A stretch of 37,761 nucleotides of DNA from Paramuribaculum intestinale. Lineage in GTDB: Bacteria > Bacteroidota > Bacteroidia > Bacteroidales > Muribaculaceae. This document shows, piece by piece, positions 25,174 to 31,519 of the stretch (position 1 is the first letter of the stretch; the number at the start of each line of letters is the position of its first letter). The position numbers were made by a program, and so were the translations under genes. The notes below the pieces were generated by a model. It had not been told where the DNA came from and ran no database searches. It saw only the letters and a list, made by a program, of their open reading frames with translations. The stretch is taken from the NCBI RefSeq assembly GCF_003024925.1, contig NZ_PUED01000005.1:1-37761 (forward strand). Direction: 5' to 3'.

Positions 25174-25785
25174 TCAGAATGTGATGGACGCGCCGATTTC
25201 GAGACGGCGGAGGGATGCGTCGATGATCCAGTTGCCCCGTCCGAGGCATCCGGGTGCTTCGGCCTTGTAGGAGCGCTCCGAGTGGTTGAAGCCAATGAAA
25301 AGATAGCGCAGTTTGAGATCTACCGGACTATTGGCGATGCGATAGGCTATACACGGTGTAAATCCGACCTCTGTCATGTCGGTATGCTTATATGGATATG
25401 TATTATTATATCCGTTGATAAGGTATCCGTTTGAATCGTAGGTATTAAATGTGGCGTGAGCTTCGGTGATGAGGCGAAGTCCTGAAGCAAATCTCATGAA
25501 GCTCTATTCTCCATATATGCCGACCCCGACATACTCGTTGTAATCTTTGAATTTTTCATATCTGAAAAATGCACCGGCCTCCCAGTCAGCGTTGAATTTA
25601 TATCCGATACGCGGCGAAGCTACCAGACCATAGTGGTTGTCGCTGTGATGATTGAAAGAGCGATGGCTGTGGCTGACTCCGAACAGTGCCGATACGGTGA
25701 TTCCTCGGTCGTCGCTGAAGTCGATGGCTTGGCTCTGGTATATAGCACAAAAAGCGGCCATGATTGTAATAATAAGTCTTTTCAT
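25174..25785 (-). pseudogene. Outer-membrane beta-barrel protein broken by an in-frame TAG
   Basis: One reading frame interrupted by a single stop (TAG at 25504-25506, codon 94). Without it the product would be 203 residues. Residues 1-20 are a signal peptide (MKRLIITIMAAFCAIYQSQA). The rest alternates polar and aromatic residues, as in small porin-like or OmpA-like barrels (GYKFNADWEAGAFFRYEKF, CIAYRIANSPVDLKLRYLF), and ends in Phe (GASITF), the usual signal for insertion by BAM. The reading GIYGE-stop-SFMRF suggests a Tyr codon changed to TAG. Both halves keep barrel-like sequence, so the change is recent, is a sequencing error, or is read through. The specific function is not recognisable. 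Base composition is more AT-rich than the surroundings. Confidence 0.8.
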
Positions 25786-26078: not shown

Positions 26079-27164
26079 TCAGAGGGAGTGATAGAGGTCG
26101 AGGACGGCGGCGGCGATGCGATCCCAGTCGTAGTCGGCGAGGTTGTAGGTGCGGCGTGCATGGCGCGCGGTCTTGTCGAGAATAAGTGCGGTCAGGGCGG
26201 CGGCGTCGCCGGGAGGAAAAAAGTCGGCGGGAGCAAGCTGCGGCAGGCGGCACGATTCGATGTCGCTCACAGCTACGTCGAGGCTGTGGCTCATGGCTTC
26301 GAGGAGTGCTATGGGGAGTCCTTCGTGGAGCGATGGCATTACAAACAGGGCTGCATCGGCCAGCAGGGCGTTGATGTGTGATCGGTCGACGGCTCCTGTC
26401 ATCACCACTCCGGATTCGGCTGCGAGCCGTGTGAGTGCCGCCGAGTAGGCTGTCGGATGGTCGGCTCCTCCGGCCACTACGATGCGCAGGCCGGCTTCGC
26501 GCAGTGCGGGGGCTGTTTCTATAAGTGTGTGGAGGCCTTTTTCGGGCACGAGGCGTCCGACGGCCACGACGTAGCGGCGCGGCTTTAGTCCGAGCGACGA
26601 GATCCATTGCGGGTCGGATGCTCCGGCGTCGGGAGGGTTGACTCCGTTGGGTATTGTGAGGAGTCTCCGGTGAGAGCCGTAGCGTGAGGTCAGTGACTCT
26701 GTGATAGGCCCGGAGATGGATATGACGGCGTTGCTTGTCAGCATTGCCGCGCGCTCTCCGAGGCGCAGTGCGAGGCGTGCGATGCGTCCCCATTTAGCGC
26801 GGTTGTAGTCGTGGCCGTGGAGTGTGGTGACCACTTTCATGCCGAGCAGACGTGCGATGGGCGCCATGAGAGCCGGTCCGCAGGCGTGGAGGTGGATTAT
26901 GTCGGCTCCGGCCATTCGTGCCTTTACGACGGCCAGAAATGTGTGTATGATAGTTTCGGTCGACTGCCGTCTGGGGGAGTAGAGTGTGTCGAGCCTCACG
27001 CCACGGTAGGCGGTGCCGGCATCGGGCGACATATACGGACGGCGGCACATCACAGTCACATCGACTCCCCGGGCGGCTATCCGCGTATAAAGCTCGCGGC
27101 AGTGGGTCTCGACGCCTCCCTGTATGCCGGGAAATCCGCGTGTGCCTGCTACTGCGATCTTCAT
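26079..27164 (-). CDS. GT4 family glycosyltransferase
   Basis: 361-residue cytoplasmic, GT-B fold, retaining glycosyltransferase. The N-terminal acceptor domain begins KIAVAGTRGFPGIQGGVETH, the glycine-rich loop of GT4 enzymes that extend capsule or exopolysaccharide units. The C-terminal nucleotide-sugar domain has VGRLVPEKG (202-210) and the E(x7)E motif at Glu281 and Glu289 (HEGLPIALLEAM). The donor sugar and linkage cannot be read from sequence. Its ATG overlaps the stop of the upstream chain-length gene (ATGA), so it is the last, translationally coupled gene of the exopolysaccharide cassette. It is the cassette's only glycosyltransferase. Confidence 0.93.
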   Translation of the reverse strand: MKIAVAGTRGFPGIQGGVETHCRELYTRIAARGVDVTVMCRRPYMSPDAGTAYRGVRLDTLYSPRRQSTETIIHTFLAVVKARMAGADIIHLHACGPALMAPIARLLGMKVVTTLHGHDYNRAKWGRIARLALRLGERAAMLTSNAVISISGPITESLTSRYGSHRRLLTIPNGVNPPDAGASDPQWISSLGLKPRRYVVAVGRLVPEKGLHTLIETAPALREAGLRIVVAGGADHPTAYSAALTRLAAESGVVMTGAVDRSHINALLADAALFVMPSLHEGLPIALLEAMSHSLDVAVSDIESCRLPQLAPADFFPPGDAAALTALILDKTARHARRTYNLADYDWDRIAAAVLDLYHSL

Positions 27165-29230
27165 GTGGTGGAGATAGCTATGATGAGGTGCTTCGGATCA
27201 AAGCCTTCGAGCTGTCGTATCAGGTGTCGGCGGCCGGTGGTGTTCCGGCCTACGATGAGGAGCAGCGCAGCGCCGTCGGCGTCGGCAAGGGTGTGCAGTT
27301 CGTCGAAGTGTCCGGGATCGGGCACTTCGACGAACAGATAGTGTCCGGCCGACGTCGCGGCTTTTGCCCGCGAGTCGAATGCCGGCGACAGTAGGGTGTC
27401 GTTGTCGGTGACGTCGTTGATGATGTCGGCTGTCATTCCGGCGCGCTGCATGGCGTCGGTGATGGCCGTGATCGCTTCGCCGGGGGCGTCGATCAGGGCT
27501 GTATAGATGGTCAGCGGAGTGCGTCCGGCGGTGATGAGGGAGCGGAGTGTGCGCGCTCCGTCGCGGGGTTTGGTGAGGTCGATGACGGATGTGCGCTCTT
27601 CAAGTCCGCATCGCCTGAGGTCGAACGGGTCGGCGAGGCGGTCGCGGCATCGCAGGGTGAGCGACACTCCGGCGCCGATGAATCCGAGCATTGCCACAAG
27701 TGCGAGCGCGGTAACTGTCAGTGGTCGTCTGGCCGAAGGCTTGAGGGCTGTTATGGCCGGGTCGATGATGAAGCCGGTGGTGTTCTCCGAGTGGTATTGC
27801 AGCAGGGCGTTCTCGCGTTTCTGCAGCAGGAATGTGTAGAGTTCGTTCTTGATGTTGTTGTCGCGGAATATCTCCATGAACTCGCGCTCGTACGAGGGGA
27901 GTGCGTGGAGGTGGGAGTCGAGCGCTCCGGTGGCGCCCTTGCGGCGGTCTTCGGCCATTCGTGCTCCTTCGAGGAGCTGTGTGAAGGATGAGATGATACT
28001 CGTGCGCAGCTGGTCGATGCGCTGTTCGGCGGCGATAAGGGCGGTGTTGCCGGGCTTGGCTGAGCGCAGCAGTTCCTGTCGGAGCATCACCTGCTCGTTG
28101 TAGGCAGTTATGAAGGCGTTGGGTCCGCTCTCGGAGCCTGCGCTCGCCGACGATCCGGGGATGACTACTGCCGGAAGGAGTCCGGTGTGTCCTTGCCGGA
28201 GTGTGTTGAGTATCTGTTCGAAGTAAGCTATCTCTGCTGTGGTCTTGAGTGTCTCTTCGTGGGAGTCGAGGCTTTTCTCAAGAAGAATGGGGGCTTCGTT
28301 GCCGATGCTGATGAAGTTGGCCTTGGTCTTGAATTGTTCCACTCGCTTTTCGCTTTCGGTCAGTTCGGAGAAGATGTCGGCTATACGTTCGTCGAGAAAG
28401 CGTATCTCGGCCTCGGCGATCAGGTGTGTGCGTTCAAGTCGCTTGATATTGTACTGTCGCATGACCTCGTCGAGTATGGCGCGCCCGCGGTCGCGTCCCA
28501 CGTCGGTGATAGTGAGGCTTATGGCGTCGGACATCTTGTCGGCTATTTCGATAATCACCTTTTTGTAGAGCATGGCGGATGCTTCCGGCGTGCCTGTGAG
28601 GGCTGCAACAAACCGGCGTGAGTCGGTCGATGCGGTGTCGAGCGATGGCCCCGGGGCGATGGTGACATCTCCGAGCGGTGTGGGGATGCTGACGGGCAGC
28701 TTCGCGTCAGAAACCTGGGCGGAGTATTTTCCGGCTTTGAGCGATGCGGAAACCTTGCCGTCAGGGTGCAGGGTGATCTCGGCCTTGACCGGGACGGTGA
28801 GTGTGTCGAGAACGCTCCGTGCCATGCCGACGAGCAGTGGAGGCTCGGCAAACAGCAGGAGTTTGCGCAGTCCGTGGCGTTCGGAAAGCTCCGTGTTGAG
28901 GTTGAGCGCCGTGACGGTGCGCCGCATCACGTCCATGGTGTTGACGAGCATTATCTCGTTGTCGACGCTTGTGGTGGAGGCGCCTCCGATGGAGAATGTG
29001 CGCATCATCTGTGCCATGGGGTTGGCTGTCTGCGCTGGTTCGGACGAGCTGTCCTCTATGAGCATAGTGGCTGTGGATTCGTAGCGCGGCTGGGTGATGC
29101 AGCAGAATGCCGTGGCCATGGCCGCTATGAGGGCGCATCCGCCAAGATAGATCCATCTGTGGGAGCGTATGGCGCGCGCTATGCGTCGCAGGTCGATTTC
29201 GTTCTTGTCAGTGGTGGTGTTGGTTGCCAT
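27161..29230 (-). CDS. Wzz/Wzc-like polysaccharide co-polymerase with a degenerate BY-kinase domain
   Basis: 689-residue inner-membrane protein that should control polymer length and connect to the Wza channel. TM1 is at about 26-46; it is followed by a Wzz domain (PRYESTATMLIEDSS), a long coiled-coil periplasmic region and a GNVR-type segment before TM2 (about 503-525). Cytoplasmic residues 540-689 resemble a bacterial tyrosine kinase in order and length, but the Walker A site reads GEAIT (584-588) instead of GEGKT/S. The A' segment is ADIINDV without the usual Asp pair, and the Walker B position reads FVEVPDP. There is no tyrosine-rich tail. I infer a dead or non-kinase domain. It starts 27 bases after the Wzy-like gene and overlaps the GT4 start. 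Confidence 0.9.
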   Translation of the reverse strand: MATNTTTDKNEIDLRRIARAIRSHRWIYLGGCALIAAMATAFCCITQPRYESTATMLIEDSSSEPAQTANPMAQMMRTFSIGGASTTSVDNEIMLVNTMDVMRRTVTALNLNTELSERHGLRKLLLFAEPPLLVGMARSVLDTLTVPVKAEITLHPDGKVSASLKAGKYSAQVSDAKLPVSIPTPLGDVTIAPGPSLDTASTDSRRFVAALTGTPEASAMLYKKVIIEIADKMSDAISLTITDVGRDRGRAILDEVMRQYNIKRLERTHLIAEAEIRFLDERIADIFSELTESEKRVEQFKTKANFISIGNEAPILLEKSLDSHEETLKTTAEIAYFEQILNTLRQGHTGLLPAVVIPGSSASAGSESGPNAFITAYNEQVMLRQELLRSAKPGNTALIAAEQRIDQLRTSIISSFTQLLEGARMAEDRRKGATGALDSHLHALPSYEREFMEIFRDNNIKNELYTFLLQKRENALLQYHSENTTGFIIDPAITALKPSARRPLTVTALALVAMLGFIGAGVSLTLRCRDRLADPFDLRRCGLEERTSVIDLTKPRDGARTLRSLITAGRTPLTIYTALIDAPGEAITAITDAMQRAGMTADIINDVTDNDTLLSPAFDSRAKAATSAGHYLFVEVPDPGHFDELHTLADADGAALLLIVGRNTTGRRHLIRQLEGFDPKHLIIAISTT

Positions 29231-29257: not shown

Positions 29258-30499
29258 TTATGACTGATTTCCTGAGGTGTGCGATCCGTAGGTGGCGGGA
29301 GTCGCGGAGCAGATGATGCCGAGGAGCATCATGCTTACTACTCCGGGTGGCTGTACGAGGGTGGTGCTGGCTATGCTTTCGATCAGCATAAACAGTATGA
29401 TGATCCATGCGATGGCGAAAAGCGCCTTGCCTTGTGCCAGTGTGCGTCGGATGCGTCGCAGCTTTGCGGCTACGTATATCCAGAAGGCAATGAATAGCGC
29501 CACGCCGGCGAGTCCCAGCTGTGCGAGCGAGGGGTAGTAGGCGTCGCAGATGAAGTCGGGTTGCGCGGGCGTGAGTCCGTAGACGTGGTTGAGACCATAT
29601 TCATAGTAGACCTTCGAGTAGTGGATCTCGCCCGATGCATGGGAGGCGAACGATGCGAGTCCGCTGCCGAAGGGGATGCGCGAGATCATGATCAGGAGGG
29701 CTGCGGCATAGAGTGCGGGGCGTGCGAGGTTTTCGATCCCTCCGCCACCGCCTCGGAGGTCGTAGCCGAGGTCGATGAAGTAGAAGCGGAATTTATTCCA
29801 TCCGACTGCCGCCACCAGTCCGCCGACCACAATGGCTGTCAGTAGCTGTCGGCTCGGTCTTATCGGTCGTCGGATTCGCATGTAGACGAGGATGAAGTAT
29901 AAGCTCACCACGCATGTGCCGAAGAATTTGGCTCGGCCGGAGGGGAGTCCGAGGGCGAGGAGCATGAATGCCATGGCTTTGTCGGTGGCCGATATGCTTC
30001 CGTCGGGACGGATGGAGCAGAGCAGCCACACGGCGAAGCTGATCACGGCGGTGATGCCCACTATGCTGATATGCATGATCAGGAGCTGTACGGTCTGGTT
30101 GCTGAAGGCCGATATGGCGGCTGCGGTGATCGCGTTGACCACGGCTATAGCGCGGAGTATCCGGCGGTCGGCGTCGGTGAACCGCGGCCCGACTGCCACG
30201 AATACGGCGAAAGCTATGTAGGGTTTGAGTTGTATGAGGTAGTCGACGGCGATGGCGTAGGGGGTGTTGTAGCTGACGGCTGTGATCGAATAGGCGGCAT
30301 AGAGGGCCATGATGCCCGTCATTACCCACAGCAGGCTGTAGCGGCACCATGCGCTGTTGACGGCTGAGTCGGTCAGTGCCAGGGCTATGAGGGCTATGAC
30401 AGTAAGCTCATCGACAGGCTTGACCAGCTGCGTGGATGGGAGCAGCAGAGCCAAGGCGAGGATGAGTATCCATGTGCATATTCGGTCGGTTTTGAGCAC
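29258..30499 (-). CDS. Wzy/O-antigen-ligase-like polysaccharide polymerase
   Basis: 413-residue polytopic inner-membrane protein with about 10-12 hydrophobic helices, starting with ICTWILILALALLLP. A large loop (about 240-330) contains GGGGGIENLARPALY, RIPFGSGLASFASH and a Tyr-rich YSKVYYEYGLNHVYG segment, then more helices. This layout, with a large periplasmic loop after the middle helices, fits the Wzy/WaaL/RfaL superfamily, which joins undecaprenyl-linked sugar units. Polymerase is favoured over ligase because the gene sits between the Wza and Wzz genes. Sequence conservation in the family is low, so the exact role is inferred from position. Confidence 0.85.
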   Translation of the reverse strand: MLKTDRICTWILILALALLLPSTQLVKPVDELTVIALIALALTDSAVNSAWCRYSLLWVMTGIMALYAAYSITAVSYNTPYAIAVDYLIQLKPYIAFAVFVAVGPRFTDADRRILRAIAVVNAITAAAISAFSNQTVQLLIMHISIVGITAVISFAVWLLCSIRPDGSISATDKAMAFMLLALGLPSGRAKFFGTCVVSLYFILVYMRIRRPIRPSRQLLTAIVVGGLVAAVGWNKFRFYFIDLGYDLRGGGGGIENLARPALYAAALLIMISRIPFGSGLASFASHASGEIHYSKVYYEYGLNHVYGLTPAQPDFICDAYYPSLAQLGLAGVALFIAFWIYVAAKLRRIRRTLAQGKALFAIAWIIILFMLIESIASTTLVQPPGVVSMMLLGIICSATPATYGSHTSGNQS

Positions 30500-30560: not shown

Positions 30561-31385
30561 TCAGTGGACGGCGAGGGCTATCACCAGCGATGCGATGACC
30601 GATATGGCTCCCACTACGGTGGAGATCACCGATAGCTTGAAGGCACTGTGCTGGTTGTATCGTGAGTTGGCCTGACGTATTTCGTTGGGTTCGACGATTA
30701 TCACGTCGTTCTGTTTCAGATAGTAGTAGGGCGAGGCTGTGATGGCCGGATCACGAAGGTCGAGCCGGACATATCGGGCGCTGTCGGCCTCTTCGCGTAT
30801 GATGGTTACATTGTCGCGGCGTCCGTACTCGGTCATGTCGCCGGCGGCGGCGAGTGCGTCGAATATCGAGAAGCGCTGCGATGGCACATGTATGCGGTGG
30901 GGGTTGCGCACCTCGCCCATGACATTGACGTGGAAGTTGGTGATAAGCACTCTGACGTTGGGATCCTTGACATGCTGTCCGATCCGCTCTATGAGCATGT
31001 CGCGGAGCTGCGACGTGGTCATCCCGGCTGCGTGGATGGTGCCGAGTTTCGGGAATTCGATGTTGCCTTCTCTGTCGACGAAGTATGACTGCTGCTGGCT
31101 GTCGGTGATGAGGTTGCCGACTCCGGTGGAGAATGAGGCGTTGCTGTTGGGGAGGTTATACTCCGATGTCGCGGCCGGTATGGCAGAGGTGACGATGATC
31201 TGGAGTTCGTCCTCGGGCTGTATGGTCACTTTGTAATCGGATTTTGACAGTGTGCCCTGGCGAGAGTCGCCGAGCTGTTCCATGTAGGTGAGATGGCTGG
31301 AGTGGCGTCCGGTGCGGCATGAGGCCATGGTCAGTACTATGGCTGTGATGAGCGCGATGCGTGTGATAATGGATCGGTTGTTCAT
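30561..31385 (-). CDS. wza: Wza-type outer-membrane polysaccharide export lipoprotein
   Basis: 274 residues. The N-terminal signal ends in the lipobox LTMASC, with the acylated Cys near residue 23. It is followed by the Poly_export domain (YKVTIQPEDELQIIVTS...) and one SLBB domain (VNVMGEVRNPHRIHVP..., DALAAAGDMTEYGRRDNV). A C-terminal hydrophobic helix ends SLVIALAVH. The product should form the outer-membrane channel of a Wzy-dependent exopolysaccharide system. The frame is open to 31496, but that extension crosses the terminator at 31480-31519 and would bury the lipoprotein signal, so the ATG at 31385 is the start. It is the first gene of the cassette; no clear promoter consensus was found upstream. 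Confidence 0.95.
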   Translation of the reverse strand: MNNRSIITRIALITAIVLTMASCRTGRHSSHLTYMEQLGDSRQGTLSKSDYKVTIQPEDELQIIVTSAIPAATSEYNLPNSNASFSTGVGNLITDSQQQSYFVDREGNIEFPKLGTIHAAGMTTSQLRDMLIERIGQHVKDPNVRVLITNFHVNVMGEVRNPHRIHVPSQRFSIFDALAAAGDMTEYGRRDNVTIIREEADSARYVRLDLRDPAITASPYYYLKQNDVIIVEPNEIRQANSRYNQHSAFKLSVISTVVGAISVIASLVIALAVH

Positions 31386-31479
31386 TTGTCGGTCGTGATG
31401 GCGCGGTGGCGCCTGATTCTCTGTTTGAGATAACGTCGAAGGTGTTCCGATATTGTGGAATGGCGGCTGAGGGGGTGAT

Positions 31480-31519
31480 AAAAAAGATCCGGCCACCTTT
31501 CTATCAAGGGAGCCGGATC
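31480..31519 (-). terminator. Rho-independent terminator of the glycogen operon
   Basis: On the minus strand an 8-bp GC-rich stem (GATCCGGC/GCCGGATC, 31486-31493 with 31512-31519), extended inward by five more pairs, is followed by a run of T (31480-31485). It separates the GH57 gene from wza. Confidence 0.88.

Follow-up and report, generated by a model that had tools for sequence, protein, structure and literature searches.

Known BY pseudokinases and the window protein

Pseudokinase versions of bacterial tyrosine (BY) kinases are already known, fused ones included. In the portion of PMC12004946 available to us, EcpK (with EpsV) and HfsB (with HfsA) are presented as stand-alone BY pseudokinases, each accompanying a class 2 polysaccharide co-polymerase (PCP-2) in a Wzx/Wzy-dependent pathway, and a phosphorylation-independent scaffold is proposed; the same portion cites Cuthbertson et al. 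for fused PCP-2/BY pseudokinases, namely S. meliloti SMc01795, Brucella ceti BCETI_6000729, Mesorhizobium Mlr8439 and V. vulnificus VV1_2305. We analysed a stretch of 37,761 nucleotides from Paramuribaculum intestinale (Bacteroidales; Muribaculaceae; contig NZ_PUED01000005.1), called the window below, which encodes a Wzz/Wzc-like PCP-2. As modelled, its C-terminal domain is apparently a catalytically dead BY-kinase relic, real and conserved.

EcpK and HfsB provide a precedent for phosphorylation-independent BY pseudokinases and resemble the window domain in combining the BY-kinase fold, devoid of Walker motifs and tyrosine tail, with service to a PCP-2. They are separate proteins, however, whereas the window-type domain is fused and only 150–171 amino acids (aa) long. 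The cases of Cuthbertson et al. carry PCP and pseudokinase in one polypeptide, as the window protein does; those named are non-Bacteroidales and known here by citation alone. What is new is how far the domain has collapsed, that the octamer motif has gone with it, and that a Bacteroidales clade shows a ladder of decay tied to one gene layout. Among the papers listed for Muribaculaceae exopolysaccharide, capsule, Wzc and tyrosine kinase, and for degenerate Wzc kinases of Bacteroidetes, we found no title or abstract describing the collapsed domain.

E. coli Wzc, Etk and BceF (PCP-2a) and S. aureus CapAB (PCP-2b) are alike in domain plan and fold (Z 11.2–12.6 to 7nhr, 3la6, 3cio, 6z0p, 4jlv and 4jmp) but possess an active P-loop, the EX2RX2R motif and a tyrosine cluster, none of which the window domain has. 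Wzz (PCP-1) and the kinase-less relatives in genomes G021, G062 and G018 are PCPs devoid of a cytoplasmic kinase, and the three relatives share with the window the gene order of outer-membrane polysaccharide export protein (OPX), Wzy and PCP. Unlike these kinase-less PCPs, the window protein is predicted to retain a folded cytoplasmic domain.

A predicted BY-kinase fold

The protein follows the PCP-2a (Wzc type) plan, with a Wzz domain, two transmembrane (TM) helices, a long periplasmic part and a fused cytoplasmic BY-kinase-type domain; for this assignment the GNVR match lies slightly below its cut-off and the TM helices are taken from the predicted model. Its closest named relative, L079, is a protein from a Paramuribaculum metagenome-assembled genome (83% identity). 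The features are as follows.

27161..29230, minus strand: PCP-2 (Wzz/Wzc-like), 689 aa, fused to an apparent collapsed BY pseudokinase domain (open reading frame; Wzz 33.2 bits, cut-off 25.5; GNVR 25.1 bits, cut-off 27.7; orthologues)
28991..29203, minus strand: Wzz domain, residues 10–80, with TM1 at about 25–45 (Pfam; helix 25–45 in the full-length model)
27671..27889, minus strand: GNVR-type region that precedes TM2 and runs into it, residues 448–520 (Pfam; helix 501–528 in the model)
27164..27649, minus strand: predicted collapsed BY pseudokinase domain, residues 528–689, 162 aa (AlphaFold2 model, BY-kinase structural matches, lengths)
27542..27544, minus strand: Arg563, which closes the former EX2RX2R octamer motif (retained in 31 of 32 orthologue rows)
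27467..27481, minus strand: pseudo Walker A position, GEAIT, residues 584–588, Ile587 replacing the catalytic Lys
27410..27430, minus strand: pseudo Walker A' position, ADIINDV, residues 601–607
27377..27406, minus strand: DNDTLLSPAF, better conserved than any other stretch of the domain (29 of 32 rows have D611)
27314..27334, minus strand: pseudo Walker B position, FVEVPDP, residues 633–639

An AlphaFold2 model of residues 528–689, aligned with 18 orthologous domains, reached a mean predicted local distance difference test score (pLDDT) of 96.5 and a predicted template modelling score (pTM) of 0.91, the full-length model being weaker (pLDDT 79.9, pTM 0.51). Both alignments omitted L091 for its ambiguous letters and L092 and L093 for having no domain; the full-length one also omitted L094, which is partial. 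Searching the PDB with the domain model by Foldseek gave Wzc in all of the top 20 rows (best E 4.2e-4, TM-score 0.67–0.73 on the query). Similarly, the top 17 rows of VIA-align were all BY-kinases (Wzc, Etk, CapA1B1, CapAB, CapA2B2 and BceF; Z 9.7–12.6 over 154–160 of 162 residues), the following row being a designed ATPase at Z 7.4. The predicted fold of the C-terminal domain is the BY-kinase fold. The initial annotation, made from the sequence alone, had read this region as a pseudokinase and named an unlike fold as the observation that would overturn it; the prediction falls on the side of the pseudokinase.

Sequence comparison gave a fainter signal. Pfam detected no AAA or BY-kinase domain in the 689-aa protein, reporting only Wzz and GNVR, and NCBIfam had no match in the 179-aa C-terminal piece. 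Profile-profile comparison of the collapsed domain with canonical BY-kinases was weak at 27.1, with 30 column shuffles giving 23.7 at best and 13.7 on average. Two sets of intermediates from the same bacterial family bridge this step: intermediate-A, with a domain of 222–225 aa, and intermediate-B, with the P-loop gone and a domain of 179–195 aa in the eight measured. Collapsed domains scored 79.7 against intermediate-B, which scored 77.3 against intermediate-A and 64.0 against canonical kinases, and intermediate-A scored 173.5 against canonical kinases.

Loss of catalytic and oligomerization motifs

The domain measures 150–171 aa in the 32 collapsed rows of our orthologue alignment, compared with 251–267 aa in 12 canonical relatives. 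It presents a BY-kinase fold, as predicted, and lacks all three Walker motifs and the tyrosine tail, which defines a BY pseudokinase of the EcpK/HfsB kind. The Walker A pattern GxxxxGK[S/T] is missing, with Ile at the Lys position of the window protein and no P-loop GxGK[S/T] in any of the 32 rows; the string GK[S/T] does occur in 5 of them, never at the P-loop position. The Walker A' pattern (four hydrophobic residues, DxDxR) is replaced by ADIINDV in columns that are unconserved over the 32 rows, and at Walker B (four hydrophobic residues, DxxP) the window protein has Glu in the Asp column, where Asp is found in a single row. Since the pseudo-motif letters vary across orthologues, GEAIT shows where Walker A once lay but is no motif in its own right. 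The motif strings and positions given in the initial annotation proved exact, as did its description of BY-kinase order with no Walker A Lys, altered A' and B motifs and a tail without a tyrosine cluster: the window domain has 2 Tyr, one of them in the last 60 residues. Over the last 25 residues, the 32 collapsed rows have 0–2 Tyr versus 2–4 in the 12 canonical proteins.

We also followed EX2RX2R, located in helix 2. In the portion of PMC3795738 at hand, the octamer interface is described as made up of this motif and the Y-cluster, one half each, and the motif as indispensable for trans-autophosphorylation and for the synthesis of polysaccharide. It was complete in 11/12 canonical proteins, 1/3 intermediate-A, 0/8 intermediate-B and 0/32 collapsed rows, of which 31 still have its last Arg (R563). 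Other positions of the collapsed rows are well conserved: D537 in all 32, D611 in 29, and E544, P637 and R667 in 27 each. By our own reading, DNDTLLSPAF would correspond to the canonical stretch NPSELLLSxxF/V.

An altered P-loop might still bind nucleotide in an unorthodox way. Such cryptic activity could draw on the Lys present in the Ile587 column in 4 of 32 rows and on the loop of L043, which reads GGKADT; over the 32 rows, however, the loop at the P-loop position varies in length and letters and nowhere forms GxGK[S/T]. We regard this as the least probable of the explanations weighed here, and a very improbable one.

Distribution and selection of the collapsed domain

The initial annotation had suggested a survey of the Walker A Lys, in case the window held one damaged copy. 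The domain profile matched 24 of 198 Muribaculaceae genomes, spread over 4 of 30 genera and with no internal stops listed, which rules out a single damaged copy; the absence of a P-loop from all 32 rows agrees, and the frame is open in every one of them. Restriction to the species of the window is likewise ruled out. One orthologue comes from the named strain Heminiphilus faecis AM35 (locus L098). A wide spread across Bacteroidales is ruled out too: an order-wide sample gave 3 of 393 genomes, two of them Muribaculaceae and the third with a weak match (E 1.9e-4) whose open frame spans 1104 aa. Among the PCP matches listed from other families, frames of about 760 aa or more were the rule, with a few shorter ones, and all 19 outside proteins read carry GK[S/T] in the kinase region.

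The domain is under purifying selection, yet less constrained than the rest of the protein. The ratio of nonsynonymous to synonymous substitution rates (omega) between the window protein and L079 was 0.31 in the domain (bootstrap 95% 0.18–0.47) and 0.11 in the rest; with L080, which with L079 makes up the two nearest relatives, the values were 0.38 (95% 0.23–0.57) and 0.15. The highest domain value, 0.52 (0.34–0.73), came from L079 versus L080. Of the ten pairs tried, five yielded no full ratio because the domain or its partner region was saturated; for L033/L040, saturation affected 20 of the 500 bootstrap draws.

Probable stepwise decay in one clade

A 57-row tree built on the periplasmic and TM part places the collapsed rows in one group with support 94/92; L019, which has the same sequence as the window protein, and L062, truncated by the fetched stretch or contig, were left out of it. 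A second, rooted tree omitted L026, L033, L089, L091 and L097 as near-duplicates or for ambiguous letters and, as outgroup, included 14 of the 19 outside kinase-bearing proteins. There, all 40 degenerate rows fall into a single clade (Shimodaira–Hasegawa-like approximate likelihood ratio test 99) nested among kinase-bearing PCPs. Intermediate-A branches first and intermediate-B next, followed by the kinase-less pair together with the collapsed group (83); the intermediate-B outlier L046 is not firmly placed. The outgroup is not one clade: five outside rows fall with Muribaculaceae proteins, and four of these stand next to canonical ones. This nesting and order of branching fit an ancestral kinase that decayed in steps, and not one that was gained repeatedly.

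A Wzy gene marks the degenerate clade

Upstream of the PCP gene lie OPX and Wzy genes and downstream a glycosyltransferase gene, all in the same direction.

30561..31496, minus strand: OPX outer-membrane polysaccharide export protein, Poly_export and SLBB (Pfam; conserved neighbour)
29258..30499, minus strand: predicted Wzy-type polymerase gene between OPX and PCP (Wzy_C 26 bits, below the cut-off of 31.7; distribution, cassette)
26079..27164, minus strand: family-4 glycosyltransferase, its start overlapping the PCP stop by 4 bases (open reading frame, Pfam)

The window-type Wzy was found in 43 of 198 Muribaculaceae genomes, with a strong match (E up to 7e-46) in 42; the forty-third, G130, was weak (E 7e-9) and left uncounted. 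Two more were left out, G083 with its PCP cut by the contig end and G131 with a different, 214-aa mini-PCP. In all 40 remaining genomes the PCP beside the window-type Wzy is degenerate or kinase-less, and in none is it canonical: 24 are collapsed, 10 intermediate-B, 3 intermediate-A (GK[S/T] retained in two) and 3 domain-less (G021 and G062, at L041 and L042, and G018). The converse test is thinner, with nine canonical loci and G159. In all nine canonical loci with flanks, OPX adjoins the PCP and the window-type Wzy is absent; it is also absent from G159, a further short-frame locus (540-aa frame). The order OPX-Wzy-PCP holds in 20 of 21 named loci, the exception, L094, being a contig that starts inside the PCP gene. 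A Wzy gene between OPX and PCP is a marker of the kinase-degenerate clade.

Two intermediates, L045 and L057 (G066 and G046), retain GEGKS together with an altered A' motif (LLDLTSE or AVDLSPS), an altered Walker B and few tail Tyr; they are P-loop-bearing and probably kinase-dead. In the excluded genome G131, L120 (contig C85, 2492–4353) has a window-type Wzy adjoining the mini-PCP, from which most of the periplasmic region is gone, and no OPX of the window type was found in that stretch.

BY-kinases and phosphatase elsewhere in the genomes

The initial annotation had left two consequences side by side, phosphorylation-free control or pairing with a separate kinase, and had proposed searching the genome for such a kinase and for a phosphatase. 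The source genome (2.87 Mb, 99.4% complete) has no BY-kinase match to TIGR01007 above the curated cut-off; its three better hits below the cut-off read as two ParA-like ATPases and Mrp/ApbC. By this measure, a BY-kinase is present in 171 of the 198 Muribaculaceae genomes, the 27 below the cut-off being assigned from listed E-values. It is missing in 12 of the 24 genomes with a collapsed domain versus 15 of the other 174 (Fisher p 3e-6, uncorrected for kinship). As for the phosphatase, the source genome, in which no BY-kinase is detectable, encodes an intact one of the low-molecular-weight tyrosine type on another contig (C20, L070, 7265–7738, minus strand); its loop reads CLGNICRS.

A trans-regulated PCP, phosphorylated by or co-assembling with a BY-kinase encoded elsewhere, could be accommodated by this phosphatase and by the half of the collapsed-domain genomes that do have such a kinase. 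It is disfavoured by the source genome and the 12 of 24 genomes in which none was detected, and no tyrosine tail is available for phosphorylation; we therefore hold it to be very unlikely. As far as the sequences go, phosphorylation-free control would be the favoured consequence of the two.

A probable phosphorylation-independent co-polymerase

The explanation that we consider likely is that the window protein is a PCP-2 that acts independently of phosphorylation and keeps a BY pseudokinase relic as a structural element, belonging to a Wzy-dependent exopolysaccharide system (OPX-Wzy-PCP-glycosyltransferase). Its fused cytoplasmic BY-kinase would have shrunk into a pseudokinase. By analogy with kinase-less Wzz, the PCP may oligomerize via its periplasmic and membrane parts without cycles of phosphorylation; in the accessible portion of PMC12881504, oligomerization of the kinase domain is thought to drive Wza engagement, and Wzz without a kinase domain octamerizes via its periplasmic helical part. 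The collapsed domain could then serve as a structural base or docking surface beneath the ring, with the cytoplasmic ends of the TM helices, Wzy or the glycosyltransferases as possible partners.

Several observations weigh against this explanation. The sequence profile of the domain did not recover BY-kinases among PDB sequences (best E 0.42), and its omega is about 2–4 times that of the rest of the protein. G021, G062 and G018 manage without the domain in the same layout, so that its function may be weak or dispensable. Also, in the other 12 of 24 collapsed-domain genomes the BY-kinase present could in principle act in trans.

Some of these points would equally suit a decaying remnant, in which the kinase became useless once the cassette changed the mode of control and the domain, held by folding constraints only, is heading for loss. 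Its relaxed omega, its absence from the three genomes with the same cassette and the ladder within one clade, from P-loop-bearing through P-loop-less to absent domain, can all be read in this way. The open frame in every collapsed row and an omega clearly below 1 speak against it, as do the near-invariant D537, R563, D611, P637 and R667. On balance we find it rather unlikely, though the most serious competitor of the phosphorylation-independent, structurally retained relic.

More tentatively, and at somewhat under even chances, the co-polymerase of the whole clade may be both kinase-dead and switch-dead, with both halves of the octamer interface lost in all 32 rows and the loss tied to the OPX-Wzy-PCP layout. 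In that case a mechanism built on the Wzy-PCP pair, independent of any kinase, would determine assembly and chain length, and living relatives would preserve the steps by which the kinase was removed.

How far the work of Wzc in capsule assembly needs phosphorylation cycling is an open question, of which this clade offers a natural dissection: its relatives carry a full kinase, a P-loop only, a collapsed domain or none, the last three sharing one gene layout. Assembly machines with the collapsed domain probably run without a phosphorylation switch. In the portion of PMC9601211 available to us, PCP-2 is assigned by the presence of a tyrosine-kinase domain, and surveys that call PCP-2 by a recognizable domain of this kind would misfile such proteins.

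Other genes in the window and genome

Further downstream, at 25174–25785 on the minus strand, what may, by our reading, be an outer-membrane barrel gene (weak BCSC_C match) is split into in-frame pieces of 93 and 107 aa by a single in-frame TAG; no homologues were found in the related loci searched. Finally, another contig of the source genome (C319, L069, 2967–7752) encodes a second chain-length system, in which a Wzz without kinase is accompanied by a WecA-like transferase and by an OPX of 820 aa that has several SLBB domains.

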